Virus record (IMG/VR): IMGVR_UViG_3300021964_000169
Span: 1-40,375 of that record
DNA: 40,375 nucleotides
Strand: one strand, 5' to 3'
Origin: a virus
The notes beneath the pieces were generated by a model, which did no database searches, was not told the DNA's origin, and saw nothing but the letters and a program-made list of their open reading frames with translations. Position numbers and translations under genes: made by a program. How positions within the stretch are numbered: position 1 is the first letter of the stretch; each line of letters begins with the position of its first letter. Shown here piece after piece: positions 2 through 37,313 of the stretch.

Positions 2-2356
2 ACAAGCTCAACTAATGTTGTTTTAGGCGAAGGCTCATATGGTGGCGTACAAGGAAGAAAATATTACAGAGACAACACAGTAGTATTAGACAGAATATTA
101 AGATTAGGGTCTGCACAAGATACAACTACTGGGGTTTATAATACAATACCTACAATACATATGGGTGATCCAGAATGGGTTCGCTCTAATCCTTTTATAA
201 ATTACGCAGGTATACAAGGCTTTTTCCCTACATACGAGCAAAACAGCACTTTGTATTCCAATAGATTTATGTATTTTTCAAGCGTAAACGTACCTTCAGA
301 CGGTACTGCTTGGGGCTCTGGAGTGCACACAGATGGAGCTCGATACCAAATGATGTTTGACGCCCAGTTTGGATTACCTAGTGGTGGAACCGGGCGAGGC
401 GATGTTTTTGGAACTAGCTCTGACGCTAACTGTAGCGCTGGTGTGGTAGAATACCGAACGGCTTCTCAAAATTATGATTACCAAAACGGGCCGCAATCAA
501 CTCCAGGCAGTCAAGGTATATTTACTTTTGACGCACGATATGACAATAACAATTATACCGCTATTGCAGGAACTAGTCTGTTTTTGCTAAAATCAGGTTA
601 TGGTAATAAAAAGTTTGAAATAAAACAAAACGCGGGCGGATCTTCAAACCCCGGAGCAGCTCTTATATTTGGTAAAGGCGCGTCTTCAACTTCTGAAAGC
701 TCTGTTGCAATGGGTAATGCTGTAACGGCAAGCGGGCTTTATTCTTTTGCCACAGGCGACACAACCACAGCGTCTGGCGTTAGCTCGTTCGCCAGCGGTA
801 AAAATACAACTACAACAGCAGAGGGAGGGGCGGTTTTCGGTAAAAACAACAGTACCACCGATGCTTTATTTACAATAGGCAAAGGAGCTTCAACCACCGC
901 TAAATCAGATTTGTTTGTAGGAACTTCAAATGGGCCAACGCATATCAGCTTCAATGCTTCTAAGGAGTCTCTAGAGTTTACCCCGCCAGTAAATCACATT
1001 CTATTTGAGTTAAAATCCGGTCCAACCAATAAGTTTTCCATTACACAAGATGGGGGCGGAGGTGTTCAAGTCGGTAATGGCTACACATCTCCCGGGCCAT
1101 CGTTTAATATGGGTGGCAATGCTTTTGCTAATGGTAAAAATGCCTTAGCGCTTGGAGCGGCTACAACTGCTTTTGGTAACGGTGCGCTTGCGGCTAACTT
1201 TTTAACACTCGCTTCAGGCGGAGGCGCGTCTGCGTTTGGCTTATTAACTGAAGCGGCGGGATTAGCCTCTGTGTCTTTTGGTAACAAGTCAGTTGCATCT
1301 GGTGACTATAGTATTGTAGCTGGACAAGATTCTATTGCCTCAGGCCAATCATCAGTAGCTATTGGTGAAAAAGGTGATGCTCAAGGTAAAAATACTTTTG
1401 TTTCTGGATTTGGTGGTACAGCTACAGCAAATAACGCTGTTAAGTTTGGTTATGAAGGATCTGCTAGCGGAAATAACTCAGCTAAATTTGGTTTTGAATC
1501 AGTAGCTTCAGGCGCAAACTCTTTAGCTACAGGTACTGGCACAACAGCAGGCGGCGCGCAGTCTATAGCAACGGGCGATAATAATGTTGTTTCAAATAAC
1601 AATAGTTTTGTAGGTGGTAAAAACAGTACTGTAACAGGGCAAAGCGCTTTTGCTTTTGGCCAAGCGAACACAGTGGCATCACTTACTTCCGCTGCTTTTG
1701 GGCAGTCTAATACTGTAAATGGTTTTCAATCTTTTGTAGCTGGTTGGAATAATAATACTAATAACTTTGCTAATCAAATATTGCTTGGTATAGGGTTAGA
1801 TAGCTCTCAAAACGAAGCTGTTGTATTAGGAAGATACAATGACAACACTGATAATTATAATAAATTCCAAATAGGCAATGGAACTGCTGACGCAGCCAAA
1901 TCAAACGCTCTAAGTATAAATGGGGCTGGTTATATTAAACTTCCAACATATGGCTCTGGCAATGTAAGCGGAACTGCAACACGTAATTTATCTGTCGCGG
2001 CCGATGGCCAAATAATAGAAACGCCTGTGGTTGCTGGACCAGATTATTTAAGCTTTGTATGTTTGCTTAGCCAATCAGGGGGTGCAGATCCACAGCCAGA
2101 TTTAGTTTTAGAAAACTCTTTAGGTATACCAACGCCATTTACGGCTTTTACAAGAGTTTCAAGCGGAGAGTATAATTTAAGCGCAACGGGTAAATTTAAA
2201 TCATTAAAAACAATTGTATTTTTAAACGGAGGATCAGCAGAAAATAACCACGATGTTGCATGGGAGGTTATTGACGCTAACAATTTAAGAATACGTACAC
2301 ATAATAGTGACGACAAGCTTACAAAAGCTGCGTTAGAAATAAGAACTTATAATTAA
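2..2356 (+). CDS. Tail fibre / adhesin with YadA-type head repeats (5' partial)
   Basis: The reading frame is open from base 2 without a stop, so the gene begins before the window and the ATG at 161 is probably internal. Seen: 784 codons before the TAA. About twenty degenerate 13-15-residue repeats of the type 'SxAxGxxxxASG' (for example SSVAMGNAVTASG, LYSFATGDTTTASG, QSSVAIGEKGDAQG) lie at roughly residues 233-300 and 366-585, counted from base 2. They are separated by a non-repeat insert. After the repeats comes a non-repetitive C-terminal domain rich in beta-type sequence. Known: such repeats form left-handed trimeric beta-rolls in YadA/Hia adhesin heads and recur in phage fibres. No membrane anchor is seen, and the virion-gene context supports a receptor-binding tail fibre rather than a bacterial autotransporter. 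The exact role is inferred. Confidence 0.8.
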   Translation, partial: TSSTNVVLGEGSYGGVQGRKYYRDNTVVLDRILRLGSAQDTTTGVYNTIPTIHMGDPEWVRSNPFINYAGIQGFFPTYEQNSTLYSNRFMYFSSVNVPSDGTAWGSGVHTDGARYQMMFDAQFGLPSGGTGRGDVFGTSSDANCSAGVVEYRTASQNYDYQNGPQSTPGSQGIFTFDARYDNNNYTAIAGTSLFLLKSGYGNKKFEIKQNAGGSSNPGAALIFGKGASSTSESSVAMGNAVTASGLYSFATGDTTTASGVSSFASGKNTTTTAEGGAVFGKNNSTTDALFTIGKGASTTAKSDLFVGTSNGPTHISFNASKESLEFTPPVNHILFELKSGPTNKFSITQDGGGGVQVGNGYTSPGPSFNMGGNAFANGKNALALGAATTAFGNGALAANFLTLASGGGASAFGLLTEAAGLASVSFGNKSVASGDYSIVAGQDSIASGQSSVAIGEKGDAQGKNTFVSGFGGTATANNAVKFGYEGSASGNNSAKFGFESVASGANSLATGTGTTAGGAQSIATGDNNVVSNNNSFVGGKNSTVTGQSAFAFGQANTVASLTSAAFGQSNTVNGFQSFVAGWNNNTNNFANQILLGIGLDSSQNEAVVLGRYNDNTDNYNKFQIGNGTADAAKSNALSINGAGYIKLPTYGSGNVSGTATRNLSVAADGQIIETPVVAGPDYLSFVCLLSQSGGADPQPDLVLENSLGIPTPFTAFTRVSSGEYNLSATGKFKSLKTIVFLNGGSAENNHDVAWEVIDANNLRIRTHNSDDKLTKAALEIRTYN
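698..1756 (+). repeat. In-gene array of YadA-head-type coding repeats
   Basis: Degenerate 39-45 bp coding repeats, recognisable at protein level as (S/A)xxxG-x5-(A/T)(S/A)G units, in two blocks (about 698-900 and 1097-1756). The DNA copies have diverged, so this is an old protein-level repeat rather than a recent tandem expansion. It is the likely trimeric stalk/head of the fibre. Confidence 0.75.
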
Positions 2357-3439: not shown

Positions 3440-4993
3440 ATGGAATTTAATAACCCTAGTGAGATAGTTAAAACTCTCACATTTGGCAATGAAGCCAAAG
3501 AGCAAATTATGCAAGGCGTCGAAAAATTGTCAAACGCAGTAAAGAGCACATTAGGTGCCTCTGGAAAATGCGTGATATACGAAGACGCTCTTGGAAAACC
3601 GGTGATAACAAAAGATGGTGTAACCGTTGCGGAAAGCGTAGTCTTATTACATCCGGTTGAGAACATTGGCGCAACACTTATAAAAGAAGCGGCAAGCAAT
3701 ACAGTAAAAGAAGCCGGGGACGGTACAACAACATCAACTGTCCTCGCGCATTCTTTGCTAAAAACGGTTAATCAGCATTTAGATGAAGAAAAAATTAGAG
3801 AACTTAAAAGTGGCATTACTAGTGGCGCTGAAAAAGTTATGGTTTATCTTAATAAAGCCAGTATTGAAATTAAGGGTGACATGCTTAAGCAAGTTGCTAG
3901 TATTTCATGCAACAACGACACAGAGCTTGGAGATAAAATTGGACAAGCTTATGAAAAGGTTGGAAAAAATGGAGTCGTTTTAATGGAAGAGTCTGATACA
4001 AACGAAACTTATGTTGAGTTTGTTGACGGCGTACAATTTGACAGCGGCTTAAAATCCTCGCATTTATCTACGGATAAAAATAAAGGTACAGCCACATTAG
4101 AAGACCCATATGTTCTTATAGTATCTTCGCCGATACCTAATATAAGAAGAATACAAAATATATTAGAGTTTGTAATTAAAAATAAAAAGAGTTTACTAAT
4201 AGTAGCGGATGTAGATCAGCAGCCATATCAAACTTTGCTAGCTAATAAAGTAAAAGGTAATATAAAAGTAAATATAGTTGATTTGCCGGGCTTTGGTCCA
4301 ACTAAGCAACAAACGCTTGAAGACCTAGCGATACTAACTGGAGCTAAAATCATAAATGAAGAGTTAGGAGACGATTTAGACTTTATAGACCCTAATGTAT
4401 TAGGCAAAGCATTTAAAGCTGTTACAGACGATAAAAACACTGTTCTGCAAGTTGCTGAAGCAAACGAAGAGGTTGCATTAAGAATAATGGATGTTGAAAA
4501 GCAAATAGCTGAGGAATCAAATCCATTTTTTAAGAAAAAATTAGAGCAACGATTATCAATGCTAACTGGTCAAGTCGGCATAATTTATGTCGGAGCAGAC
4601 TCTAAGGTTGAGCTTAAAGAAAAGAAAGATCGTATTGAAGATGCAATATATGCGACAAAAGCCGCTTATAAAGAAGGTATAGTCCCTGGAGGCGGTGTTG
4701 CCTTATTAAATGCCTCTACATTAGTAAAAGCTAAAAACAAAGGTGAAGAGATATTGCTAGAAGCAATAAAATCACCATACGAAACTATATTAGAAAATGC
4801 TAATATGCCTGTTGTGTATCCTCAAATTAAAAATAGAGGTATAGATGTTAAAACAGGTAAAGATGTTAATATGATCAAAGCTGGAATTATAGATCCCGTG
4901 TTGGTTACAAAAACAGCTTTAAAGAATGCGGTAAGTGTTGTTAACACAATTATATCTGCCGATTGTATAATCAGTAATAAACGATTAGCATGA
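3440..4993 (+). CDS. groEL: Phage-encoded GroEL-like chaperonin (Hsp60)
   Basis: 517 aa, against about 545 in bacterial GroEL; the C-terminal GGM tail is absent (ends CIISNKRLA). Group I chaperonin signatures are present: TLGASGKCVIYE, TKDGVTVA (D59, equivalent to E. coli D52), GDGTTTSTVLA at 93-103 (D94, equivalent to D87), the apical PGFG at 283-286, IEDAIYATKAA (D401, equivalent to D398), GIVPGGGVALL and GIIDPVLVTKTAL. ATP binding and hydrolysis therefore look intact. In the apical domain, the segment equivalent to E. coli GYLSPYF reads GLKSSHL (203-209), so Y199, Y203 and F204 are replaced by L, H and L. The stop overlaps the groES start as ATGA, suggesting translational coupling. It probably folds a virion protein; the substrate is unknown. 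Confidence 0.95.
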   Translation: MEFNNPSEIVKTLTFGNEAKEQIMQGVEKLSNAVKSTLGASGKCVIYEDALGKPVITKDGVTVAESVVLLHPVENIGATLIKEAASNTVKEAGDGTTTSTVLAHSLLKTVNQHLDEEKIRELKSGITSGAEKVMVYLNKASIEIKGDMLKQVASISCNNDTELGDKIGQAYEKVGKNGVVLMEESDTNETYVEFVDGVQFDSGLKSSHLSTDKNKGTATLEDPYVLIVSSPIPNIRRIQNILEFVIKNKKSLLIVADVDQQPYQTLLANKVKGNIKVNIVDLPGFGPTKQQTLEDLAILTGAKIINEELGDDLDFIDPNVLGKAFKAVTDDKNTVLQVAEANEEVALRIMDVEKQIAEESNPFFKKKLEQRLSMLTGQVGIIYVGADSKVELKEKKDRIEDAIYATKAAYKEGIVPGGGVALLNASTLVKAKNKGEEILLEAIKSPYETILENANMPVVYPQIKNRGIDVKTGKDVNMIKAGIIDPVLVTKTALKNAVSVVNTIISADCIISNKRLA

Positions 4994-5247
4994 AAGCAAT
5001 AAATCACTTTGTAATTGTAGACAAGATAAAAGAAGAGCCATCGAAAGTTGGTGGACTCGAACTTACTGAAAAGCAAAATAAAGACGTTCGTTACGTTAAA
5101 GGTAGAGTAATAAGTATAGGTGATCAAATAGATATACTCCAAGGTGGTGACCTGGTTAGATATGATAAGCACGCAGGGCACGGTATTGAATGGAACGATC
5201 ATTTGTATTACGTACTAAAAATATCAGATATAGTTCTTATAGAATGA
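4990..5247 (+). CDS. groES: GroES-like co-chaperonin (Hsp10)
   Basis: 85 aa, slightly shorter than bacterial GroES (about 97). It shows the GroES fold order: N-terminal VIVDKIKEE strand, a mobile-loop equivalent at about 17-35 (SKVGGLELTEKQNKDVRY), KGRVISIGDQ, GGDLVRYDKHAGHGIEWN, and YYVLKISDIVLIE at the end. The E. coli IVL contact triad of the mobile loop is represented by L23-E24-L25. The gene overlaps groEL by 4 nt and the following gene by 4 nt (ATGA at 5244-5247). It presumably caps the phage GroEL, since the gene pair is contiguous; whether it also works with host GroEL cannot be told. Confidence 0.85.
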   Translation: MKAINHFVIVDKIKEEPSKVGGLELTEKQNKDVRYVKGRVISIGDQIDILQGGDLVRYDKHAGHGIEWNDHLYYVLKISDIVLIE

Positions 5248-5684
5248 GGCTAACTGGTAAAGATCTGCAAGATATGAATTTGTTAAAGTATTACAGGCTT
5301 ATCAGAAGGTGGGCCTGTAAGACTTATAACTTAAAAGACGCAGATTTAGAGCTGCTTATTTACCTAGATTGCAAAAAGCTTTTTACACGTAATGATTTTA
5401 TTAATGGCGTATATACCTACAGCTGGGATAAAAACCGGTGGGAAAGATTACGCCGAGAAGGTTGGATTGATGTATTTAAAGAACGCAACAGAACAACCTC
5501 AAAGTATGCTGCATACAAAACGTCAAGTAAATGTAAGCTACTAATAAAAAGAATATACAGAATAATGTTGGCTGAAGAAGATTTACCAACATCTGAAAGA
5601 AGTACATTTTACAAAAACAAAACATATACAGATAAAGTCTTTAATAAGGCGATTGATGATATGATTAACGATAAAGAAAGATAA
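5244..5684 (+). CDS. Putative winged-helix DNA-binding protein
   Basis: The start is chosen at ATG 5244, which overlaps the groES stop (ATGA) and gives 146 aa; an in-frame ATG at 5190 would run deep into groES and is less likely. The protein is basic and helical. Residues from about 15 to 100 have the helix-helix-helix-wing look of MarR/winged-helix proteins: YYRLIRRW, LELLIYLDCKKLFTRNDFI, then WERLRREGWIDVF followed by a basic turn RNRTTSKYAAYKTS. I recall related proteins in other marine flavophages annotated as MarR-like. DNA binding and any regulatory target are inferred, not shown. Co-transcription with the chaperonin genes is likely. Confidence 0.6.
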   Translation: MRLTGKDLQDMNLLKYYRLIRRWACKTYNLKDADLELLIYLDCKKLFTRNDFINGVYTYSWDKNRWERLRREGWIDVFKERNRTTSKYAAYKTSSKCKLLIKRIYRIMLAEEDLPTSERSTFYKNKTYTDKVFNKAIDDMINDKER

Positions 5685-5685
5685 T

Positions 5686-5838
5686 ATGGGACCAAAAGGA
5701 ATAGGGCCAAACAAACTAGGCGCAGTAAAAACACCTTCAAAAATATTAGGAGCAATCGCCGGGGCGGTAGCACCAGCTTTAATTAAAGGTGCAGCAGGAG
5801 CATTAGCTGGAAAGTTAGTGGGCGGCAAAAAAGGATAA
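5686..5838 (+). CDS. 50-aa glycine/alanine-rich hydrophobic peptide
   Basis: A short frame between two tightly linked genes: ATG one base after the previous stop, and TAATG overlap with the next start (5836-5840). Sequence: MGPKGIGPNKLGAVKTPSKI followed by a glycine/alanine-rich helix (LGAIAGAVAPALIKGAAGAL, AGKLVGG) and a KKG end. The G/A-x3-G/A spacing resembles glycine-zipper membrane helices. It has basic residues at both ends and no acidic residue. It could be a small membrane-active peptide (holin-like or virion penetration) or a DNA-associated peptide. Function is unknown. Perfect packing between neighbours supports a real gene. Confidence 0.6.
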   Translation: MGPKGIGPNKLGAVKTPSKILGAIAGAVAPALIKGAAGALAGKLVGGKKG

Positions 5839-6218
5839 TGGCATTTAAGTTAAAGTCTAAAGGAGAAATATTCGGCATAAACGAAGAGCTATCGGAGTTT
5901 GGTAGGCCAGTTTTTGAAAAAAATTTAGACGCAAACGTTATTGCTGAGGCCAATCGCGACGGGACTACATTTGTAGACAAAGGGGCTTCTGAAAAAGAAA
6001 AGCGAGATGCAATAGACCACGAGAATGAGCATCACAAACAGTTTTTGCAAAATAAATTGCAATATACTGACGAGACTGTAACGTGGAAAAAAGACACGAA
6101 ATCACCCGCTAGAGTTTACGACAGAGTGGGTGGAATGATAAAATCAAGAGACGGCGAAAAAAGCCACGAAGGGCACGCGGGTTTCGAATGGGAAAAAGAA
6201 GCATATAATCCAGAATAA
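5838..6218 (+). CDS. Small HExxH protein, possible zinc metallopeptidase
   Basis: 126 aa. Residues 59-66 read IDHENEHH, giving HExxH at 61-65 (H61, E62, H65), the zinc-binding motif of gluzincins and related peptidases. A C-terminal acidic/aromatic segment (GHAGFEWEKEAYNPE; E117, E119, E121) could supply the third ligand, as in small SprT/DUF45-like or eCIS-type zincin domains where a W-x-x-EAY-like segment follows. The starting MAFK is shared with the gene at 37851. No signal peptide or membrane segment is seen. Peptidase activity is inferred from the motif only; a role in virion maturation or host-wall attack is possible but untested. Confidence 0.6.
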   Translation: MAFKLKSKGEIFGINEELSEFGRPVFEKNLDANVIAEANRDGTTFVDKGASEKEKRDAIDHENEHHKQFLQNKLQYTDETVTWKKDTKSPARVYDRVGGMIKSRDGEKSHEGHAGFEWEKEAYNPE

Positions 6219-6220
6219 CT

Positions 6221-6526
6221 ATGGCGATACCAATTACACAAAAAGCAAAGTCCCCTTGTAAATATGACATAATAGAGGGAGAAAAACAAACGCTAGATTA
6301 TGGCGGTAATAATATTGCCCAAATGATAGACAAGTCTATTAAAAAAGACGAAAAGAAAGAGGATTCTGTGCAAGCCCCGCCAGAGCAAGAAGGTTCGGAA
6401 GGATCCGATGGCACAGGGGGTAAAAATGTATTTACCGGTATGATGAATAAATTTAACAAGAAAAAAAGCGCGGGTGATTATAAAATAGATTTGCCTGATT
6501 TTGATTTTTCAAATATAAAACTATAA
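6221..6526 (+). CDS. Hypothetical virion-type protein with IPITQKAK N-terminus
   Basis: 101 aa, low-complexity and charged. The N-terminus (MAIPITQKAK) is nearly the same as that of the otherwise unrelated protein at 37310 (MSIPITQKAK). The middle is a Glu/Lys/Gly-rich linker (EKKEDSVQAPPEQEGSEGSD), and the end (YKIDLPDFDFSNIKL) looks like a short binding tail. No enzymatic motif is visible. It lies 2 bp after the HExxH gene and 11 bp before the next. Function is unknown. The shared N-terminal tag suggests recruitment to a common partner, perhaps the virion. Confidence 0.55.
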   Translation: MAIPITQKAKSPCKYDIIEGEKQTLDYGGNNIAQMIDKSIKKDEKKEDSVQAPPEQEGSEGSDGTGGKNVFTGMMNKFNKKKSAGDYKIDLPDFDFSNIKL

Positions 6527-7640: not shown

Positions 7641-7931
7641 ATGTACACGCAACCATACGCATCGTCACCGGTACAAAAACTTCGTAAAACAACGAAAGGC
7701 AAAGGGAGACATTTCTTAAGCGCAAAAGAAGGTGCTGGAATGACTGCCGCCGGTAGAAAAGCATATAATAAGCAAACGGGTGGAAACCTTCAAGCCCCTC
7801 AACCGGAAGGTGGGTCAAGGCGTACATCATATTGCGCTAGATCATTAGGGCAAATGAAAATGCACAATATTAATTGTAGTAAAACGCCAGATAAAAGAAT
7901 CTGCGCTGCAAGGCGTAGATGGAAATGCTAG
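7641..7931 (+). CDS. Small basic Cys-containing phage protein (DUF6321-like)
   Basis: 96 aa, strongly basic. It carries the pattern SAKEGAGMTAAGRKAYNKQT, GGNLQAPQPEGG, RRTSYCARSLGQM and a C-terminal ARRRWKC. From memory this matches a domain recurrent in cyanophages and other marine phages (I recall it as DUF6321: 'SAKxGAGLTAxGRxxYN...APxP...R..SFCAR...RRWKC'). The conserved Cys residues (in SYCAR, NCSK, RICA and the C-terminal WKC) could bind metal. It is usually near structural genes; function is not known to me. Start at 7641 lies 2 bp after the previous stop. Confidence 0.7.
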   Translation: MYTQPYASSPVQKLRKTTKGKGRHFLSAKEGAGMTAAGRKAYNKQTGGNLQAPQPEGGSRRTSYCARSLGQMKMHNINCSKTPDKRICAARRRWKC

Positions 7932-8097: not shown

Positions 8098-8496
8098 ATG
8101 AAAAAAATATGGGAATGGCTAAGCGGCGGAGTAATTAAAGAAGTCGGGGATGTCATTGATAAATTAACTACAACTAAAGAAGAAAAATTAGAAGCTCAGC
8201 GATTAATAACTGAGATACTAGAAAAAGCAGATAAAGAAGCGCAAGAGCAAGTAACAGCGAGATGGGAAGCGGATATGAATTCAGATTCGTTTTTATCAAA
8301 AAACATAAGACCTATGGTTCTTATATATTTGACTGTTATATTCACAGCGTTATGTTTTTTTGACGGCAATATAGGTGAGTTTAAAATAGCAGAAGACTAT
8401 ATACCAATTTTTCAATCTTTACTAATAACAGTTTACGGGGCGTATTTTGTTGGGCGTACCTGGGAAAAAGCAAAAAAATCCAACAATAACAATTAA
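8098..8496 (+). CDS. Holin of the GTA/3TM type
   Basis: 132 aa. A helical soluble N-terminal part (about 1-68, with the sequence ARWEADMNSDSFLSKNIRP) precedes two clear membrane segments, at about 72-89 (PMVLIYLTVIFTALCFF) and 101-119 (IPIFQSLLITVYGAYFVGR), and a charged tail. The RWxADMxSDSxLSKNxRPMVL signature is typical of the 3TM holin family known from gene-transfer agents (GTA_holin_3TM, PF11351, by memory). It would form inner-membrane lesions that release the endolysin. It lies about 30 kb from the M15 endolysin gene, so the lysis functions are split across the late operon. Confidence 0.8.
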   Translation: MKKIWEWLSGGVIKEVGDVIDKLTTTKEEKLEAQRLITEILEKADKEAQEQVTARWEADMNSDSFLSKNIRPMVLIYLTVIFTALCFFDGNIGEFKIAEDYIPIFQSLLITVYGAYFVGRTWEKAKKSNNNN

Positions 8497-9544: not shown

Positions 9545-9764
9545 AGAGTTGATTAAGGTAGCTAAAGAAGCTATTGTAGATTCAGATGATGATATATCAG
9601 CTGATAGACTTAAGAATGCGGCGGCCACAAAAAAACTAGCTATATTTGATGCGTTCGAAATATTAACGCGCATCCAAGAAGAAGAAGCTATACTTGACAA
9701 TAAACCTAAAGAAGAGGAAAAAAAGAAAACTTTCTCGGGCTTTGCAGAAAAAAGGTCTAAGTAA
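9489..9764 (+). CDS. Putative terminase small subunit
   Basis: 91 aa, almost entirely helical: KKNIIQAGHKAVEELIKVAK, then ISADRLKNAAATKKLAIFDA, then a charged tail ending SGFAEKRSK. It lies directly upstream of the large terminase and shares one base with it (TAATG at 9762-9766), the usual position of TerS. The size fits a short TerS, which recognises phage DNA and stimulates the large-subunit ATPase. No classical helix-turn-helix can be picked out with certainty, so the assignment rests mainly on position and helical character. The start is 56 nt inside the previous gene. Confidence 0.55.
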   Translation: MNIKETKKNIIQAGHKAVEELIKVAKEAIVDSDDDISADRLKNAAATKKLAIFDAFEILTRIQEEEAILDNKPKEEEKKKTFSGFAEKRSK

Positions 9765-11974
9765 TGTACGAGCAAACTTTATATAGCATAATAACACCCA
9801 TAAAGAAAACCACAATATCCAGGTTAAATAAAAGTAAAAAATGGAGGTACGGTTATAACAAAGAGCACGATGTTATTGTTATAAGCAAAACCGGGCAAAT
9901 AGGCGATATATATAAAATACAAAATTTAAAAATCGCTTTACCCAAAACTCCTGCTGAAATAAATAAATCAAATGATAAATGGGTTGTCGAGGCGTTGCCA
10001 AAAGAATTAAAACGCATACAAAGTGTTTTTGAGTGGCGAGATTATCCTGACGACTTTAAAGAAAAATGGGAACCATATATAGATGAACAGTTCAGACGCC
10101 GCGAAGAAGGCCATTGGTTCAATAATAAAGGTGTGGGCACTTACATTACTGGCACTCACTTTATGTACTTGCAATGGTCTAAGATTGACGTTGGGCACCC
10201 AGAATTTAGGGAAGCCAACAGATTATTCTTTATCTTTTGGGAGGCTTGCAAAGCAGACCAAAGATGCTACGGTATGTGTTACCTCAAGAATAGACGTTCA
10301 GGATTTTCGTTCATGGCAAGTGGCGAGACCGTTAACATGGCCACAATATCAAGCGATGCACGATTCGGAATATTATCAAAGTCCGGTGCTGATGCTAAAA
10401 AAATGTTTACCGACAAAGTAGTACCAATATCAGTAAACTATCCTTTTTTCTTTAAGCCAATACAAGACGGTATGGACCGTCCAAAAACGGAGCTAGCGTA
10501 TAGAATACCAGCTTCAAGACTTACAAGAAAGTCTATTCAGAATAAACAAGATCAAGAGTTATTAGAGGGATTAGACACCACGATCGACTGGAAAAACACA
10601 GGGGATAACTCCTACGATGGAGAGAAGCTTAAACTCCTCGTACATGATGAGAGTGGGAAATGGGAAAGGCCAGACAACATCCTCAACAACTGGCGCGTCA
10701 CTAAAACTACATTAAGATTAGGTAGTAGAGTTATTGGTAAATGTATGATGGGCTCAACATCAAACGCTTTAGACAAGGGTGGAGAGAACTTTAAAAAACT
10801 TTATAATGACTCAGACGTTACAAAAAGAAACCGCAATGGACAAACTAAGTCAGGATTATATTCTTTGTTCATACCTATGGAATGGAATTACGAAGGATTC
10901 ATTGATGATTATGGAATGCCTGTATTCGAAAACCCACCAGAAGATTGTGTTGGCCCACACGGAGACGCTATCGAAGTCGGGGTCATCGAACATTGGGATA
11001 ATGAGGTAGAGGGATTAAAAGGCGACCAGGACGCTTTAAATGAGTTTTACAGGCAGTTTCCGCGTACAGAAGAGCATGCGTTTAGAGATGAAACCAAAAA
11101 TAGTATATTTAATTTAGTTAAAATATACGAACAAATAGACTACAACGAAGATTTAAAAAGCACGGGAGTCGTTACAACTGGAAGCTTTAGCTGGGAACAC
11201 GGCGTAAAAGATAGCAAAGTTATGTTTTCGCCAAATCCAAATGGAAGATTTAAAGTATCTTGGGTGCCTAAGGTTGCATTACAAAATAAACAAGTAATTA
11301 AAAATGGTATAAGATACCCTGCTAATGATCATATAGGTGCATTTGGCTGTGATAGTTACGATATATCAGGAACTACAGACGGCAAGGGATCCAAAGGAGC
11401 ATTACATGGGCTTACTACTTTTAGCATGGAGGATGCGCCGTCGAATACATTTTTTTTAGAATATGTAGCGCGACCACAAACAGCTGAAATGTTTTTTGAG
11501 GATGTTCTTATGGCTTTAGTGTTTTATGGAATGCCTCTTCTTTGTGAAAACAATAAACCAAGATTATTGTATTATTTAAAGCGTAGAGGATATAGAGGTT
11601 ACTCTATGAATCGCCCTGATAAAACATACACAAAATTATCCGTTACAGAAAAAGAAATAGGCGGTATACCTAACTCTTCTGAGGATATAAAGCAAGCTCA
11701 TGCAGCTGCTATTGAAACTTATATACAAAACCACGTTGGTATTACTAATGATGGCCAATACGGTTCAATGTATTTTAGCCAAACCTTAAACGATTGGGCT
11801 AAGTTTGATATAAACAAAAGAACAAAATTTGACGCGGCTATTAGTTCAGGGTTAGCAATAATGGCCTGCAATAGACATCTATACAGGCCAAACCCAAATA
11901 CACAAAAACCTAAGTTAAATATACATATTGCAAAATATAAAAACGCCGGTTCAATATCGGAAATAATAAAATAA
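9764..11974 (+). CDS. Terminase large subunit (TerL)
   Basis: 736 aa DNA-packaging motor. ATPase part: a variant Walker A region at about 176-188 (NRRSGFSFMASGE), a strand FGILSKSGADAKKMF, and Walker B at 291-296 (LLVHDE; D295, E296). Nuclease part (RNase H-like): first acid D530 in FGCDSYD, second E595 in LLCENN, third D690 in TKFDAAIS. The Walker A lacks the textbook GxxxxGKT, as is common in TerL families with 'RxxGfT/S' P-loops. The protein threads DNA into the prohead and cuts concatemers. It sits between putative TerS and portal (4 bp gap). Length fits large TerLs of crAss-like and marine phages. Confidence 0.92.
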   Translation: MYEQTLYSIITPIKKTTISRLNKSKKWRYGYNKEHDVIVISKTGQIGDIYKIQNLKIALPKTPAEINKSNDKWVVEALPKELKRIQSVFEWRDYPDDFKEKWEPYIDEQFRRREEGHWFNNKGVGTYITGTHFMYLQWSKIDVGHPEFREANRLFFIFWEACKADQRCYGMCYLKNRRSGFSFMASGETVNMATISSDARFGILSKSGADAKKMFTDKVVPISVNYPFFFKPIQDGMDRPKTELAYRIPASRLTRKSIQNKQDQELLEGLDTTIDWKNTGDNSYDGEKLKLLVHDESGKWERPDNILNNWRVTKTTLRLGSRVIGKCMMGSTSNALDKGGENFKKLYNDSDVTKRNRNGQTKSGLYSLFIPMEWNYEGFIDDYGMPVFENPPEDCVGPHGDAIEVGVIEHWDNEVEGLKGDQDALNEFYRQFPRTEEHAFRDETKNSIFNLVKIYEQIDYNEDLKSTGVVTTGSFSWEHGVKDSKVMFSPNPNGRFKVSWVPKVALQNKQVIKNGIRYPANDHIGAFGCDSYDISGTTDGKGSKGALHGLTTFSMEDAPSNTFFLEYVARPQTAEMFFEDVLMALVFYGMPLLCENNKPRLLYYLKRRGYRGYSMNRPDKTYTKLSVTEKEIGGIPNSSEDIKQAHAAAIETYIQNHVGITNDGQYGSMYFSQTLNDWAKFDINKRTKFDAAISSGLAIMACNRHLYRPNPNTQKPKLNIHIAKYKNAGSISEIIK

Positions 11975-28409: not shown

Positions 28410-31400
28410 ATGTCAAAAATAGAAAACAAAAATTACCAATGGGATCAAGAATCCCAGCAGTTCGTTGAAGTATCGAGTGAACCACAAGATGACGCACAAC
28501 AGGATTTTCAAAACGGAGTTGCGGAGACGGATGCACTTGCAGCTCCAATATTCAAACCAGCGTCCGAAAATGGGGAATCCAGCTTGGAAGAGGATTTTTC
28601 GGTTTTACGATTAGGTGATGCCGAAACAACGGATATAACTGTAGAGGATTGGATTAAAGAAACAGAAGCCGGTATTCGAGAAGACATGACAGCAGATGAA
28701 CTTGACGCTTGGATAAATAGACCTGGTGGCCCATCTGATGATCAGTATTCTTTTTTAGAAGAAAAAGAAATATACGAAGCAAATAAAGACGATAAGAAAA
28801 AAGGTAAAAAACCTAAAACTCTTGATCGTTCACCATATATGGTAGAATTATTTGAGGGATCTGATTTAGGGCAATATGCTAATCAACCCTTTATTTTATA
28901 TAGTAAATCAAAACAATTTTTAGAGGAAGAAAGAAAACAAATACCTTTAATAAACACTAAACTTCAAAAAGAATTTGACGATGAGATTTATCGCTTAGAC
29001 TATTTAGCAAATAATATGGACACTGTTATAGCGTCCAACAGAGCTAATAAGTTTTTAGATATAAAAAATCAAATAAATAATTACGACACGCAAATACAAC
29101 AAGCGGAGTCTAATTATGAAAATGGTAAAATAAGCCTAGATCAAAAAGAATTAACAATTGAAAGGCTTAATTTTGATAAAAACGCTACTATTGAAAATTT
29201 ATCACCTTATGATAAACAACAATATGATAAAAATCTTAAAATATTAAATGAAGTAACTACGGCTAGTGATAAAGATACTTATAGTAGTTTTTCAAAAGAC
29301 GATGAAGAAAAAGCAAGCCTTAATAATAGAGTAGAGCAAGAAATACTAACAATAGCGCTGCAAAACGATAAGCTTCAAGGTAAAATATTAGATGGGAATT
29401 TAAATTTAGCAGGTAAAGAATCATTAATACAACAAGCTAAATCGGTTGTTCTTGAAGATGATTATAACGAGTATTTAGATGAGTTTAATAAAGCCGAAGA
29501 AATAATATTTTCTTTTGGGGACATGTCGGATATAACACCCGAGGCAGCCACTAAAGCACAAAATATAATTATAAATGCAGGAGAAAAAGTACAAGATTCT
29601 TTTGCTGAATTAAGTTTTAATGTTGGTGAAGGCGTGTTTTTAAATTCATTTGAAATGACAGATGAATTTCAAGAATGGAGAGACCGCCATATAAAAGATA
29701 TGGGTGTAGTTGGAGACTTGCTAGATGCCGGTGGAACTTTAGTGCAAGGGTTACAACAAATTGGAGGAGACTTTTTTGGTGGCAGCGCGATATGGCTAAA
29801 CGAAGTTGCGTTTGCGGGATTAGAAAAAGTTGGAATTGAAGCTCCTAATAAATATGGCCTAGAGTATAATAGGTTGGACATGGTTCAAGACTGGTTCGAG
29901 AATTATAATAATTTTAATTACTTAGGTGTTAGCGATCTTGGTGGCAGCATTTCTCAAGATGGATTTTCATTTAGATCAGGCACAAAAACTATTGCTAATC
30001 TTTTACCATTTACAATTGGTGTAGCTATGTCAGCTAGAAAAGGTGACATTAAAGGAACAAGAAGATTATTTTCCGCGTTAAAAGGCATGGGTGCTTCGCC
30101 CCGTGTTATTAATAGTATAAAAATGGGTGGCTTCGCTTACGGTGCAACTGTTAATGATAATTTTAACGAGGGTAAACAATTAGGGTTATCTACAGATGCA
30201 GCAATTGCATACTCAAGTATGACATCAACCGCAACAGCTTTAGTTCAAAGTATAATGCCGGACGCTAACTTTTTCAAAACAAGCGTTGGTAATACAATAA
30301 AACAGCAGCTTGTTGAAAATCTTAAAAAAGCAGGGAGCGCCGAAGCAAGAAAAGCAGTTGGCAAACAATTTTTTAACAATTTAATTGGTGAACTTGGTGA
30401 AGAAGAGGCTGAACTTGCTCTGCAAGATTTAGCTAAAATTACAGTAGGGCTAAGTAATGATACCCAATTTTGGGATTGGGACACTCAATTAGAAACAATA
30501 GCAGGTACAATACTATTAACGGGTAGCACATCTGCTGCGACGAGCTCGACTCAATACAACAATTTTAAGAACCAAGTATATAATACTTATAGGTTACAAG
30601 GCAAAGACGTTATAAGTACCTTAAACGAGGCTAAAAAGCAATCTGAAGCTAAATTAAAAAGAGCCAGAAGTGTTAAAGGGAAAGAAAATGCGCAAAGACA
30701 ATTAGATCAGATCAATGCGGCGTTATCTTATGGCAACGAAATCATGAAGGCCATAAATGTTGCTCCTGATATAATGAATGATAGTCAAATAGATTTACTT
30801 ATACAAAAAAGTAAATTAATATCGCAAAGAGATTCAAAAAGAGTTGGAGCTACAACAGAAATAGACCAACAAATTGCCGATATAGATGCTCAAATTGCAG
30901 GTACAGATGTTACAAAGCAAGGCGAAGTAATCCAAAAAAGAACTGAGGCTGGTGTTCAAAAAATAGCCGGCGATTTAGGTATTGAATTTGAAAAAGGGAA
31001 TACAGAGCAGGCGGCGAAACTTATTGAAGAGGAAAACAAAAGGCGCAAAAAAAGCAAAGAAAAGCCGATTGATGTTAAAAAGACATCAAATGATAACGGG
31101 TTTATAATACAAAACCCTGACGGTTCGCAAAAAATATTTATAAATGAGGATGTGGCAGGCGATAATAAAGCCGTTACAACAGCGCAGCATGAGCTTTTGC
31201 ATGGGGTTTTATTAAAAACAATTAAAGACAATCCCAATGCTATTGTACAAATGTCAAACGCATTGCGGTCTGAAATAGATAAGATGATACCCACGGGAGT
31301 TTCGTTTAATAATTCTTATATAAATGCAAGACTAGAAGCTTATAAAACAGATCCTGATAGCATAAAAGCTGAGGAGCTATTAACTATATTCTCAGAAGGT

Positions 31401-34400
31401 TTAACACAGGGCTTTATAGCATTTGAAGAAAATGCTTTTACAAAAATAGGCGACTCTGTAAGAAGAGCATTACAATCATTGGGTCTGGGTGTTAAATTTA
31501 ATTCTGGCCGAGATGTTTATAATTTTATAAAAGATTTTAACAAAAGCGTTGAAATGGGCCAGGGCTTAAGCAAAGGACTTCAGCGTACGGCAACAAAGGG
31601 AGCTAAAATAGGTACAAAATTAGGAAGTAGCAGTGCATTTTTATATAATGCAAATTTTGAAAACGCTGTACAAACTATTTATACAGAAGAATCAGATATG
31701 TCAGCGCAGCAAAAGGCCATACAAATAGCTCTTGTTTATAAAGATAAGGTTGCTGCACTAATAAATAAAAGTTCTGGAACTCCATTTGGTTTAAAAGAAA
31801 ATTATGCCGCGATGGAAAATGTGCTTATTGGTAAAACCAATACTAACAGCATATTTAATATTGTAATGAATTATAATCCCGACTCCGGTATATCATTAGA
31901 TCAAACAATAGGTAGATCTATAGCGGGGCAAATACAGTATGGCAATGCAACTGTTAAGTCTTCGGCTAACCTTTCTAGGGAAGCGGAGCAAGCTAAGAAA
32001 ATATTAAATGATCTTTCTAAAGAAGATGGATTTAATCCTCAAACCGGAAGAGATTATGAGATCGTAGGTAGTCAGCTTATTGGCATGACGTCTGCACAAG
32101 TTTTTAAAAGGTTTCCATCTTTAGACGACGGGAAAAAAGAGGAGCTTACTTTTGATATAATCGAACGGGTTCTTAGAAAATCACCGGGCAAACAAACGTC
32201 GGCAGATTTAAATTGGGACGGCAGAGGAGATTTTTACGGCTTTTTAAATGGCAGAATAAGCGATAGAATGTTAGACGCTTTAAAACAAAATCCAGATTAT
32301 TTATCTCAAATAGACCAGAATCAATTTGATCAGTTAGAAAAAGAAGCCAGCAAAGTAACAAACGAAATATCAGAAACAAAAGTAGAAGATAAACCTGTTT
32401 ATCCTAATTTAATAAAAACAAAAGTACTACCGTCAGATTTAGCAAGCGCGGTAAAAGCTAAAGTATTATCTACAATAAGAGTATTAAAAACTAGAATTGA
32501 CGCTGCCGCTGGTAAAAACGCATCTGTTACGCCTATAATAAATGATATTAAAAATCAAATGGGCAAGCAAGCTGACATTGAGTTTAAAAAAATGTTAGGA
32601 ACCAAAAAAGGAGATGCTTTAAAAAACAATTTGCTTAAGCTTAAAAAGCCTATTCTTGAAAATATGACTACAACTTGGTTAATGCAAGCTATGCCTTTTG
32701 CTGTGCAAAAATCAGTTGGTGGAAGTTATAGAGTTGATGAAGATGGTAAAAGAATAAAAAACGAAAATGATGAATTTATTTTTGACCCTAAGTTTACTTT
32801 AAATTGGCAAGGACAAAAAATTGACAGAGCAAAAACGTCGACAGATCAGCAAGGTAAAACTTCAGGGCCTGAAATTGTGAAAAGAGTACCAGCGGGCAGA
32901 ATAACAGATGAGCAGTTTTTAAGTTACATGTTTAAAGACGGTGAAATTATACGTGGCCGAAAAGAGTCTTTGGCAAAAGCAATGGCCGAAGAGTATTCTT
33001 TTGATTTATTAAACAGCGAGCTACAAGATCCTACAAGCAAAATTAGAGAAGCTTTTGAAAACAATCAAGAATTGCTAGGTGTTACTATAGCCGAAAATTT
33101 TATACAAGATTTTGCAAGACAAGCGGAAAGAGGGACTGTTAAAAGAAGCGGTAATGTAGCAATGTTTGAAGAAATGCTGTCTCTTGAAATAAGAGGCGAC
33201 ATTGATGGTTCCGCCGCTATGTTCGAATCTTTATCAAAAGAAGACAAGGAGTTTTGGCAAGCAGCTACTTCAGACTTAAGGGTAGCAACAACAAAATACA
33301 AAGCGGGGCTCAAAAAATTAAATGTACCTCAAAATGTAAAGCAATATTTAGATCAATATTTTAAAAATCCTTCGGCTAAAACGAATAAGCAGGCCATGAA
33401 GGAAATGAATAAGTTTAGTTTAGCTATGATTGATGCTTTACCTAATAACATAGTTAAAGCATTAGGCGCCGATTTCTTTGGGGCTCACTATAGATATTTA
33501 AACCCTAAGGACGGAAGAACTATGGGTGCTAAAATAAAAGCTAAAATAGACGCTTTACCAGAAACGGATTCTGATATAACTTTAATACAGGCGGGTTTTG
33601 GTTTTGTTGGAACACTTACAAAAGACGTATTATATAAAGATTTTAAAACTGTACAAGAAAAAGTAGATTACTTAACAGAGAACTACGGGGATAAAATTGA
33701 AGCTTTAAATACTGCAAACAAAGCTGCTATTGAAATGGTAGTTAAAACAGCATATGATCTTGCTATTAAAAACCCTGAATACACAATAGGTTTTTTAAGA
33801 ATGCTAGAATCAACAACTAATATTGGCAAATCCTTAAGAGCGTTAACCGGTATAATTGATATACAAATGACAGCAGAATCACAGGCTGTATATGTAAACA
33901 AAAAGACGGGACAAGGCTACGGTAATACTTTAACAGACGCGCAAAGACGTAAATTAAAAAGCGGTGAAATCGTTATAAATGAAAATCATCCTAATTACAA
34001 AGACGCTCAAAAATTTATAAAAGACGGATCAAAACAAACTTTAGCTCAATTGCTAAGAATTAAAGGTGAGCATGCCACACCCTCATCTAACTTTAACTTA
34101 AAACTAGCTGATCAATTTCTAACTGCTTTAAGTATAGGTTTAGAAAACCCAGGGGGAGTTGAGCAAGCAAAAAATTCTCTTGTAGCAAATACAAACTCGT
34201 TAGCTATTGATTTTAATCAACAATTAAATACTAAAGTGCTATCCGATATACAAGATGCTAAATTAGGTTCAACTAGTGATATAGGGGATTTAAGATTGTT
34301 AGCTTTACCAGAAGCTAGTCAAGCGTCGTTTTTTGATATAGAAGGCAGGCAAACAATTGGTAGAGTGCAAAGACTTGTTAAAGAAATATTTAATAAGGAT

Positions 34401-37313
34401 AAAACAAAAACAATTGCTAAAATTAATACTGAGCAAAAAGCTATAAATGAAGGTATTAAATCGTCTAAGCCCGCAAAAGGCATTAGCGTGTATGATTTTG
34501 ATGACACATTGGCTTTTAGCAAAAGCGAGGTTATAGTTAAAATGCCGCAGGATCCAGAAATACTTGATATTGCGGCAAGAAGGATGTTTGCTGAAGAGTT
34601 TAAAGACAAGCCAGGTTTTTTAAGAACGTTTGACAATCTTACAAAAGAGCAGCAAGAAAAAGTAAGCAATAGTGTTCCAAGATCAACAAAAAAGATTACA
34701 CCCGCTGAATTTGCAAAGCAAGGTGATAAATTAGCTAAAGAAGGTGCTGAATTTGATTTTAGCGAATTTAGCAAAGTGGTGCAAGGGACGCCTGGGCCAT
34801 TAGCTCCAAGACTTAAAAAAGCAATTGAAAAATTTGGCAACCAAAATATATTTGTATTAACAGCCAGGCCAGCTGAATCGGCAAATGCTATACACGCATT
34901 TTTAAAAGGTCTAGGTTTAGAAATACCTCTTAAAAATATAACAGGTTTAGCAAACGGGGCGCCTTCCGCTAAAGCTAATTGGATGGTTGGAAAGGTATCT
35001 GAGGGGTATAACGATTTTTATTTTGTAGATGATCATTTAGGAAATGTAAAAGCTGTAAAAGATGTTTTAGATACATTCGATGTTAAAGGCAAGGTGCAGC
35101 AAGCACGCGTAAAAAGATCCGCTAATCTAAGTATAGAGATTAACGAAATGATAGAGCGCAACAAAGGCGTTAGAGCTGAAACCACATACTCAAAAATAAA
35201 GGCCAGAAAAGACGGTGCTCGCAAAGGTAGATTTAAATTTTTCTTACCATACGGAGCAGAGGACTTTAGAGGATTAACATCTTATACATTAGCAGGCAAA
35301 GGAAAGCAAGGTGAAGCTGATCAAAAATGGTTTGATGATAATTTAGTTAAACCATATTTAAGAGGTATTGCGGCAATGGAGGTTGCAAAGCGCGCGCTTA
35401 AAAATGATTTTTCTTCATTACTAAGATCAATACCAGGTCTTAAAAAGCGGTTAAATAAAAGAATAGGTGATACTGATTATACAGTTGATCAAGCGGTTCG
35501 TGTATATTTATGGACACAACAGGGTTTTAAAATCCCAGATATATCTAAAAGAGACCAAAAAAAATTAAATAGTTTAGTTAAAAAAGACCCTTCGCTTGTT
35601 TCTTTCGCTGAGTCACTACAGGCTATTTCTAAAAAAGATAAATGGGTCGAGCCTGCTGATTATTGGATAGCTGGCAGTATATTAAAAGATATAAACGATA
35701 TTGGAGAAAAAACAAATAGGGCGGAGTATTTACAAGAGTTTAATCAAAGTGTAGATATTGTTTTTAGCGAGCAAAATTTAAATAAGCTTGAGGCTATATA
35801 TGGCACTCGATATACTAACGCTTTAAAGAATTCAATAGCCAGAATGAAGTCTGGTAGAAACAGACCAGCGCAGCCAGGTGCTTACGAACAAAAATGGCTA
35901 AACTGGGTTAACAATTCTGTTGGTACTATAATGTTCTTTAACAGACGTTCGGCTATGATGCAGATGTTGTCTTTTGCGAACTTTGTAAATTGGGGTGATA
36001 ATAACCCGTTAAAAGCAGGTATAGCTTTTGCTAATCAGCCAGCTTACTGGAAAGCATGGTCTAAAATATTTAATTCACCGAAGCTAAAAGAGCGTAGAGG
36101 CGGTTTAAAATCCGACGTACAAGAACAGGAGATTGCAAGTCAAGCTAAAAATAGTAAAGACAAAGCAAGCGCAGTAATTGCATACTTATTAAAAATAGGT
36201 TTTACGCCTACACAATTAGCGGATAGTTTTGCAATTGCAACCGGAGGAGCGACGTTTTTAATTAACAGAACAAAAACATATAAAAAGCAAGGTTTATCTC
36301 AAGCTGAAGCAGAAGCAAAAGCGTTCGAAGACTTTAGCGCTATTTCTGATGAAACACAGCAGTCTGGTGATCCAATGCTTATTTCCGCACAACAGGCAAG
36401 TCATTTAGGGCGCCTTATATTGGCTTTCCAAAACACGCCTATGCAATATACCAGATTAATGAAAAAAGCTGGTCAAGATCTTATAAATGGACGTGGGGAT
36501 GCTAAGACTAATATTAGTAAGATAGCCTATTACGGGTTTGTACAAAACCTTATATTCAGTGGGTTACAAAACGCATTGTTTGCATTAATACCAGGATTTG
36601 ATGATGAAGAAAAAGAAGACGAACAATACGAAAAAATCATTAATACAAAGACTGAAAGAATTGTTAATTCTATGGTGGACACTATTCTTAGGGGATCTGG
36701 ATTAACAGGGGCTGTTGTATCAACATTAAAAAATACTATTAATAGATATTACAAAGAAGAGAAAAAAGGATATAATGCAGATCACGCTTATACATTATTA
36801 GAGCTGGCAAACGTTTCGCCACCAATAGGTTCTAAGCTTAGAAAAGTATATGGCGGGATACAAACAAAAAAGTTTGATAGAGATGTAATAGAAACGCAGG
36901 GTTGGGATGTTACATTAGATGGCAGATTTAATATATCGCCTAATTACGAGATACTGGGCTCTCTTACATCAGCGGGTTTAAATTTACCATTAGATAGAGC
37001 ATTGGCAGAGGTGGACGCTATTTCTGAAATGCTTGACGCAAGAAACACCTCTTATCAAAGAATAGCTTTAGGATTAGGCTGGAGAACTTGGGATGTTAAT
37101 GCAGATAAAGAAGAGGAAGAGAAAGTAAAAGTTGAAGGAAAAGCCAGAAGAAAAGTAGAAGGCCAAGAAAAAGCTAAAAGAACAAGAGCTGAAAATAGCG
37201 CAAAATTAAGAGGGCTTCAACAAAATCTTACTATTGAACAGGCTAATGCTTATGGTAAATGGAAAAAAGGAAAAACGGTTAAAGAAAAAATTAAATACCT
37301 GGAAAAATTATGA
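28410..37313 (+). CDS. Giant (2967-aa) internal virion / ejection protein with metallopeptidase- and HAD-type motifs
   Basis: The largest gene of the window and third in the ejection-protein run. Seen: acidic N-terminus (1-110); coiled-coil region (about 155-370); Gly/hydrophobic segment (about 430-475); HELLH at 927-931 (H927, E928, H931), with E989 or E996 as possible third zinc ligand; a HAD-type block with DFDDT at 2029-2033 (D2029, D2031), LTARP at 2150-2154, K2188 and FVDDH at 2205-2209; amphipathic/hydrophobic stretch at about 2705-2732 (FVQNLIFSGLQNALFALIPG); and a Lys/Glu-rich C-terminal helix. Known: giant phage polyvalent proteins carry such enzyme domains and are injected with DNA. 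Inference: an ejected multi-enzyme protein, perhaps with cell-wall or host-protein and phosphate-transfer activities. No lytic transglycosylase or RNA-polymerase DxDxD motif was found. The stop overlaps the next ATG. Confidence 0.75.
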   Translation: MSKIENKNYQWDQESQQFVEVSSEPQDDAQQDFQNGVAETDALAAPIFKPASENGESSLEEDFSVLRLGDAETTDITVEDWIKETEAGIREDMTADELDAWINRPGGPSDDQYSFLEEKEIYEANKDDKKKGKKPKTLDRSPYMVELFEGSDLGQYANQPFILYSKSKQFLEEERKQIPLINTKLQKEFDDEIYRLDYLANNMDTVIASNRANKFLDIKNQINNYDTQIQQAESNYENGKISLDQKELTIERLNFDKNATIENLSPYDKQQYDKNLKILNEVTTASDKDTYSSFSKDDEEKASLNNRVEQEILTIALQNDKLQGKILDGNLNLAGKESLIQQAKSVVLEDDYNEYLDEFNKAEEIIFSFGDMSDITPEAATKAQNIIINAGEKVQDSFAELSFNVGEGVFLNSFEMTDEFQEWRDRHIKDMGVVGDLLDAGGTLVQGLQQIGGDFFGGSAIWLNEVAFAGLEKVGIEAPNKYGLEYNRLDMVQDWFENYNNFNYLGVSDLGGSISQDGFSFRSGTKTIANLLPFTIGVAMSARKGDIKGTRRLFSALKGMGASPRVINSIKMGGFAYGATVNDNFNEGKQLGLSTDAAIAYSSMTSTATALVQSIMPDANFFKTSVGNTIKQQLVENLKKAGSAEARKAVGKQFFNNLIGELGEEEAELALQDLAKITVGLSNDTQFWDWDTQLETIAGTILLTGSTSAATSSTQYNNFKNQVYNTYRLQGKDVISTLNEAKKQSEAKLKRARSVKGKENAQRQLDQINAALSYGNEIMKAINVAPDIMNDSQIDLLIQKSKLISQRDSKRVGATTEIDQQIADIDAQIAGTDVTKQGEVIQKRTEAGVQKIAGDLGIEFEKGNTEQAAKLIEEENKRRKKSKEKPIDVKKTSNDNGFIIQNPDGSQKIFINEDVAGDNKAVTTAQHELLHGVLLKTIKDNPNAIVQMSNALRSEIDKMIPTGVSFNNSYINARLEAYKTDPDSIKAEELLTIFSEGLTQGFIAFEENAFTKIGDSVRRALQSLGLGVKFNSGRDVYNFIKDFNKSVEMGQGLSKGLQRTATKGAKIGTKLGSSSAFLYNANFENAVQTIYTEESDMSAQQKAIQIALVYKDKVAALINKSSGTPFGLKENYAAMENVLIGKTNTNSIFNIVMNYNPDSGISLDQTIGRSIAGQIQYGNATVKSSANLSREAEQAKKILNDLSKEDGFNPQTGRDYEIVGSQLIGMTSAQVFKRFPSLDDGKKEELTFDIIERVLRKSPGKQTSADLNWDGRGDFYGFLNGRISDRMLDALKQNPDYLSQIDQNQFDQLEKEASKVTNEISETKVEDKPVYPNLIKTKVLPSDLASAVKAKVLSTIRVLKTRIDAAAGKNASVTPIINDIKNQMGKQADIEFKKMLGTKKGDALKNNLLKLKKPILENMTTTWLMQAMPFAVQKSVGGSYRVDEDGKRIKNENDEFIFDPKFTLNWQGQKIDRAKTSTDQQGKTSGPEIVKRVPAGRITDEQFLSYMFKDGEIIRGRKESLAKAMAEEYSFDLLNSELQDPTSKIREAFENNQELLGVTIAENFIQDFARQAERGTVKRSGNVAMFEEMLSLEIRGDIDGSAAMFESLSKEDKEFWQAATSDLRVATTKYKAGLKKLNVPQNVKQYLDQYFKNPSAKTNKQAMKEMNKFSLAMIDALPNNIVKALGADFFGAHYRYLNPKDGRTMGAKIKAKIDALPETDSDITLIQAGFGFVGTLTKDVLYKDFKTVQEKVDYLTENYGDKIEALNTANKAAIEMVVKTAYDLAIKNPEYTIGFLRMLESTTNIGKSLRALTGIIDIQMTAESQAVYVNKKTGQGYGNTLTDAQRRKLKSGEIVINENHPNYKDAQKFIKDGSKQTLAQLLRIKGEHATPSSNFNLKLADQFLTALSIGLENPGGVEQAKNSLVANTNSLAIDFNQQLNTKVLSDIQDAKLGSTSDIGDLRLLALPEASQASFFDIEGRQTIGRVQRLVKEIFNKDKTKTIAKINTEQKAINEGIKSSKPAKGISVYDFDDTLAFSKSEVIVKMPQDPEILDIAARRMFAEEFKDKPGFLRTFDNLTKEQQEKVSNSVPRSTKKITPAEFAKQGDKLAKEGAEFDFSEFSKVVQGTPGPLAPRLKKAIEKFGNQNIFVLTARPAESANAIHAFLKGLGLEIPLKNITGLANGAPSAKANWMVGKVSEGYNDFYFVDDHLGNVKAVKDVLDTFDVKGKVQQARVKRSANLSIEINEMIERNKGVRAETTYSKIKARKDGARKGRFKFFLPYGAEDFRGLTSYTLAGKGKQGEADQKWFDDNLVKPYLRGIAAMEVAKRALKNDFSSLLRSIPGLKKRLNKRIGDTDYTVDQAVRVYLWTQQGFKIPDISKRDQKKLNSLVKKDPSLVSFAESLQAISKKDKWVEPADYWIAGSILKDINDIGEKTNRAEYLQEFNQSVDIVFSEQNLNKLEAIYGTRYTNALKNSIARMKSGRNRPAQPGAYEQKWLNWVNNSVGTIMFFNRRSAMMQMLSFANFVNWGDNNPLKAGIAFANQPAYWKAWSKIFNSPKLKERRGGLKSDVQEQEIASQAKNSKDKASAVIAYLLKIGFTPTQLADSFAIATGGATFLINRTKTYKKQGLSQAEAEAKAFEDFSAISDETQQSGDPMLISAQQASHLGRLILAFQNTPMQYTRLMKKAGQDLINGRGDAKTNISKIAYYGFVQNLIFSGLQNALFALIPGFDDEEKEDEQYEKIINTKTERIVNSMVDTILRGSGLTGAVVSTLKNTINRYYKEEKKGYNADHAYTLLELANVSPPIGSKLRKVYGGIQTKKFDRDVIETQGWDVTLDGRFNISPNYEILGSLTSAGLNLPLDRALAEVDAISEMLDARNTSYQRIALGLGWRTWDVNADKEEEEKVKVEGKARRKVEGQEKAKRTRAENSAKLRGLQQNLTIEQANAYGKWKKGKTVKEKIKYLEKL

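Follow-up and report, generated by a model that had tools for sequence, protein, structure and literature searches.

A minimal zincin-like phage protein encoded beside a MarR-like gene, and a coupled exchange at residues 61 and 123 among its relatives

The window analysed here is the whole of a 40,375-nucleotide stretch of viral DNA (IMG/VR record IMGVR_UViG_3300021964_000169, positions 1 to 40,375). Among 87 records compared, its terminase is closest to that of MW202828 (64.6%), followed by those of Flavobacterium, Cellulophaga, Tenacibaculum and Maribacter phages. With a terminase resembling that of Flavobacteriia phages, the virus probably infects a bacterium of this class. The capsid gene gives a match to Crass_capsid that lies below threshold (15.9 bits against a cut-off of 27). 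The features on which the discussion depends are as follows.

3440-5247, + strand: phage GroEL (3440-4993) and GroES (4990-5247), conserved upstream neighbours (PHROG 5725, Pfam Cpn60_TCP1 and Cpn10, synteny)
5244-5684, + strand: MarR-fold winged-helix protein, 146 aa, as predicted (56-row homologue alignment, AlphaFold2, Foldseek, VIA-align)
5838-6218, + strand: minimal zincin-like protein, 126 aa (ORF, conservation in 94 members, structure prediction and comparison)
6018-6032, + strand: HENEH codons, residues 61-65 (translation, arithmetic from the ORF start)
6189-6206, + strand: WEKEAY codons, residues 118-123 (translation, conservation, predicted helix 117-123)
8098-8496, + strand: holin-like protein, GTA_holin_3TM (PF11351 in Pfam at 25.5 bits, cut-off 24.8; synteny)
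9764-11974, + strand: terminase large subunit, with which the conserved block closes (PHROG 6681, 4e-169; synteny)
38588-39049, + strand: Peptidase_M15_3 protein, likely endolysin (Pfam match)

Several other genes deserve mention in their own right. The product of 161-2356 (+), a probable receptor-binding fibre, gives matches of YadA-head and ice-binding beta-roll type that lie close to the Pfam cut-offs. A cysteine-rich basic DUF6321 protein (7641-7931, +; 54.7 bits) is retained in some of the related loci. Two small proteins encoded 31 kb apart (6221-6526 and 37310-37849, both +) have a common N-terminus, M[AS]IPITQKAK, and other small basic proteins near them may be virion components. Near the record end and on the opposite strand, 39208-40308 (-) encodes the C-terminal part of a ribonucleotide reductase (Ribonuc_red_lgC).

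The ORF at 5838-6218 begins with ATG and runs without interruption to give a product of 126 aa. Translation bears out what a preliminary description of the sequence had reported, HENEH at residues 61-65, and places WEKEAY at residues 118-123. On composition alone an HExxH motif arises in 2.1% of shuffled copies of the protein (200,000 trials). The 33 gene products checked (12,636 aa) hold two such motifs against 0.096 expected, this one and the HELLH at residue 927 of a 2967-aa protein (28410-37313, +), around which 400 residues have no Pfam match at E 0.01. The conservation of HENEH across the family argues still more firmly against a chance origin. The same description took the two HExxH proteins to be the only protease candidates, and this is wrong, since it overlooks the Peptidase_M15_3 protein, the evident wall-acting enzyme of the window.

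The family as assembled here comprises 94 distinct members including the window protein: 67, then 4 that are remoter, then 23 from a scan started with the neighbouring gene. IMG/VR contigs were scanned with the window protein, an alignment and one relative as queries, and separately with the neighbouring gene. The scan with the alignment kept the best 80 of 265 relatives, so the true family is larger than 94. Its members come almost wholly from marine-type viral contigs. As a lone query the window protein finds nothing usable in Pfam (no family even at E 10), PHROGs or the PDB sequences, a PDB profile search gives chance-level matches only, and one scan of a bacterial and archaeal genome collection returned 12 stretches that match a pattern, of which none encodes a relative by tblastn. 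Against named phages the window protein matches Tenacibaculum phage pT24 at E 0.8, while a relative used as query matches four records of Methylophilales phage Melnitz at 2e-4. The homologue in Melnitz-3 (L156, 5950-6372), a 141-kb Kyanoviridae phage, is surrounded by small genes without assigned function; the family is therefore not confined to the phage group of the window. In another relative (L155, 2971-3399) a segment of about 20 residues containing the GEANMDG motif is duplicated in tandem within the protein. Among the titles listed from the open-licence PMC literature, none concerns this protein.

Thirteen positions are invariant in all 94 members: P24, V25, E37, A38, N39, D41, E62, H65, Y76, G112, W118, E119 and A122. 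This makes the segment E37-A38-N39-x-D41 as invariant as the active site. The preliminary description had named loss of H61, E62 or H65 in homologues as the observation that would count against a zincin. E62 and H65 are kept in 94/94, and the window protein retains all three residues. Position 61, by contrast, is His in 80 and Glu in 14 of the 94, so for this one predicted ligand the expectation of conservation failed. Two other candidate ligands have been dropped. E121 varies (E 89, D 4, Q 1), unlike the invariant E119, and H113 is His in only 20/94 members.

An AlphaFold2 model built from 66 sequences (pLDDT 80.5, pTM 0.68) assigns HENEH to a helix spanning residues 52-70 and WEKEAY to another near the C-terminus, 117-123. 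The minimal zincin domain that had been proposed at the outset is upheld by these helices together with the structure comparison, in which rows 1-16 of VIA-align are zincins with modest scores and row 17 is an SH2 domain (Z 3.3). Twelve of those 16 rows are zincins by title and general knowledge, and the other four, which belong to a Mycobacterium tuberculosis regulator, count as such if it carries an ImmA/IrrE-type domain. The top rows are this regulator (6cyy, Z 5.8), PprI (8sln, Z 5.6) and IrrE (3dte, Z 5.5), followed by SPRTN (6mdx, Z 4.2), Wss1 and abylysin; the tool itself warns that a Z below 8, as all of these are, may reflect a common arrangement. The regulator (6cyy/6cyj/6cz6/6d2s) is taken to carry that domain; the assignment of PDB entries to zincins or MarR-type proteins by title, and the choice of typical MarR and M78 members, follow general knowledge of these families. 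Foldseek finds nothing significant in the PDB (best E 0.25), its rows 1-6 being selecase and abylysin. In a viral structure library one uncharacterised protein is significant (9.5e-6), and SprT-like phage proteins are among the rows below it. Overall, the conservation, the model and the comparison make it very probable that the window protein is a small HExxH zincin with H61, H65 and E119 as ligands, E62 as base and residue 123 as the partner of H61. The helix of HENEH and that of E119 are predicted, as had been hoped of a structure prediction, and a ligand role of E119 is likely.

How does such a protein compare with known kinds? HENEH is an HExxH motif of the gluzincin type, and E119, invariant in 94/94 and on the predicted helix 117-123, is the candidate third ligand; zinc-dependent proteolysis by the window protein is putative. 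The minigluzincins (abylysin and selecase/jannalysin) are of similar size (chains of 104-109 aa), supply the Foldseek rows just mentioned and score Z 3.6-3.7 in VIA-align. However, they differ in the long insert between the second His and the Glu helix, and there is no sequence match. The M78 proteins (ImmA/IrrE/PprI) supply the best structural rows, combine HExxH with Glu and are encoded beside a DNA-binding protein. On the other hand, the neighbour here is of MarR fold instead of an Xre-type repressor, and 126 aa compares with a 247-aa chain for IrrE. In Pfam the window protein has no match to Peptidase_M78 at E 10, and one of 27 relatives matches it at 0.0042. Relatives do reach PHROGs. One (L108) matches 10499 and 16532, both of unknown function, and 87 ('metallo-protease') at 8.8e-7, 5.5e-9 and 3e-6, and the Melnitz-3 homologue matches phrog_10499 at 6.4e-18. 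Matches of relatives to 10499 and 16532 span both the HExxH region and the C-terminus. The window protein itself gives only 0.031 (16532) and 0.43 (10499), with no match to 87.

The Glu at position 61 does not come alone. K123 is present in 14/14 of the E61 proteins and in none of the 80 that have H61, where residue 123 is Y in 72, N in 5, D in 2 and R in 1. E62, H65 and E119 are all kept in the 14 E61 members. The E61/K123 pair has at least two origins: the tree of 94 members built without columns 61 and 123 needs two changes, its well-supported branches force two, and a tree of 67 members with all columns gives two likewise. One origin is represented by a single contig (L086), which groups with two proteins that have H61 and N123 (L071 and L111), the forks within this group being weakly supported in the 94-member tree. 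The other is a clade (that of L021) whose sister, L076, has H61 and R123. Since the relatives of L086 and the sister of the L021 clade keep H61 without Tyr123, loss of Tyr123 appears to precede loss of His61. Asn is a one-base stepping stone between the Tyr and Lys codons. A third origin through L150 and L228 was considered and dropped because the tree puts both inside the main E61 clade, although they have long branches of unsure place.

Residues 61 and 123 are reciprocal best covariation partners, with a background-corrected mutual information of 0.292 (z 4.4). By mutual information the pair ranks only 24th among 7381; of the 15 highest pairs, ten are confined to residues 100-120 and three include residue 44. 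Two independent events are also too few for significance in any sign test of dependence between 61 and 123. Perhaps the swap is an artefact of sequencing or assembly? This has been rejected: the E61 proteins lie on 23 different IMG/VR contigs by hand count, and His to Glu and Tyr to Lys need two base changes each.

The swapped form seems to be in use. For the E61 clade (11 proteins; 52/55 pairs) the pairwise dN/dS comes to 0.10-0.11, and for three H61 clades (8, 5 and 16 proteins; 16/28, 8/10 and 110/120 pairs) to 0.05-0.08. Such values suggest selection on the E61 clade that is somewhat relaxed at most and clearly not neutral. In six E61 records (the long ones of L085, L074 and L090, and those of L228, L150 and L086), all of which may be fragments, no second zincin copy was found. 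Being the sole copy there, at a dN/dS of about 0.1, the swapped form would still matter.

A structural rationale is offered by thermolysin, in which, according to PMC3268031, Glu166 is the third ligand and Asp170, four residues on, hydrogen-bonds His142, the first His of HExxH. Residue 123 likewise follows E119 by four residues, on predicted helix 117-123. On the strength of this spacing we infer that E119 is the likely third zinc ligand and residue 123 a second-shell residue touching H61. Substitution of Glu for the first His has precedent: according to PMC3650047, its frequency in substituted HExxH motifs is about double that in average proteins. The accompanying Lys is what is added here.

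The gene upstream starts at 5244, in an ATGA overlap with the GroES stop, where its homologues begin in a 56-row alignment; the start at 5190 given by the ORF tool (5190-5684) is wrong for this reason. AlphaFold2 predicts a winged helix (pLDDT 84.6). All 50 Foldseek matches listed are MarR-type by title or general knowledge (probability 0.98-1.00, best E 1.4e-3), and VIA-align gives MarR-type rows with a best Z of 8.9. Pfam at E 0.01 has no match for the 164-aa reading of the gene (best 0.13). The homologue in MW202828 is annotated 'repressor protein'.

The two genes belong to a recurring order: GroEL, GroES, the MarR-like gene, the zincin, variable small genes, the holin-like gene, small genes and the terminase. 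Among 104 loci, not all of them on separate contigs, 100 have the MarR-like gene upstream of the zincin, and in the four where it was not found (L040, L055, L060 and L095) the zincin lies 63-333 bases from the contig end. When the scan starts from the MarR-like gene, the zincin is downstream in 78 of the best 80 of 357 loci, a sample that favours close relatives, at a distance of five bases or fewer in 42/78 and 970 at the farthest. The two exceptions are L231 (a 54.9-kb record) and L233 (14.4 kb); in these records, as in phi38:1, MW202828 and Panino, the MarR-like gene is present and no zincin of this family was found. It therefore does not need the zincin, and a dependence of that kind is rejected. 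The zincin is also linked to GroEL/GroES and other operon genes as tightly as to the MarR-like gene, so the neighbourhood does not single out the latter.

What, then, might the protein do? It would be a soluble minimal zincin of the HExxH-plus-Glu kind, with H61, H65 and E119 binding zinc, E62 acting as general base and H61 held by a second-shell residue at 123, which is Y in this protein and N, D or R in a few others of the family. During infection it may serve within the cell as a regulatory peptidase, much as IrrE does towards DdrO or BlaR1 towards BlaI, its substrate being the MarR-like protein encoded upstream. This role is preferred because IrrE and BlaR1, small HExxH proteases, act on DNA-binding partners, the former cutting DdrO and the latter BlaI (PMC7593790). 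The likeness to BlaR1/BlaI extends to the winged-helix fold of the partner, and BlaR1 (8exr) appears in VIA-align at Z 2.9, but the 126-aa protein has no membrane or sensor part and cleavage of a partner is hypothetical here. A regulatory peptidase acting on its MarR-like neighbour is a weak guess, doubtful in itself, that we still place above any single rival. The change from H61/Y123 to E61/K123, made jointly in two lineages or more, would either rebuild the metal site around a carboxylate as first ligand or put a Glu-Lys salt bridge in place of the metal, and the swapped protein would stay under selection. Zincin site, regulatory role and coupled swap together form the best explanation, one to which we give an even chance.

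If catalysis is dispensable, the protein might instead be a binding or scaffolding protein that keeps the zincin fold. The 14/94 members that have E61/K123 from at least two origins would fit, as would their sole copies and dN/dS of about 0.10, the additional Q121 of one E61 member (L228) and the invariance of E37, A38, N39 and D41 like that of the active site. However, full HExxH is present in 80/94 members, and a structural role does not obviously demand that E62, H65 and E119 be invariant in 14/14 E61 members, which leaves this reading unlikely. Equally improbable is a peptidase of SprT/SPRTN-like or host-directed type, one that would free DNA of proteins or eliminate a protein of the host. 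The best structural rows include SPRTN (6mdx, Z 4.2) and Wss1, SprT-like phage proteins stand high in the viral library, and the Melnitz-3 homologue matches SprT-like at 1.1e-4 (22.4 bits, gathering score 25.6). Yet the window protein has no such match, 126 aa is too short for a separate DNA-binding domain, and the genes that share a block with this one are holin-like and packaging genes, not replication genes.

The preliminary description raised the possibility of a virion-associated peptidase acting in capsid maturation or wall penetration; nothing found here points to it, and this is the least probable of the single roles. The gene does share the transcriptional direction of the structural genes. 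It had also been said that no prohead protease is apparent, a claim that is only partly substantiated: S78 and S49 profiles matched nothing in ten related records (52-67 kb) of uncertain completeness, where the controls gave matches in 4 and 11 of 14 genomes. The window protein itself matches no Pfam profile of a serine-type prohead protease at E 10. Against such a role, the gene lies between GroEL/GroES/MarR-like and holin-like/terminase, upstream of the capsid genes and not adjoining them; some lineages are without the canonical site, some related records without the gene, and the wall already has its evident enzyme in the M15 peptidase. Moreover, the main text of a paper on a crassvirus virion (PMC10172136) contains none of protease, peptidase, cleav- or scaffold-; a related virion may thus need no maturation protease, which is no more than suggestive.

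The minimal zincin-like protein is real, and the double exchange that occurs naturally among its relatives is unusual. The family keeps almost the same position throughout a group of phages with terminases related to those of Flavobacteriia phages and has been without a named function; for the preferred regulatory role the MarR-like neighbour provides one concrete candidate substrate. In its boldest and rather improbable form, that role would amount to a two-gene phage switch, a MarR-fold regulator controlled by a minimal zincin whose ligand and partner were exchanged at least twice, still working through a Glu-His-Glu metal site or with the Lys ammonium replacing the metal. The natural H61/Y123 and E61/K123 forms can readily be compared to learn what keeps a zincin useful.
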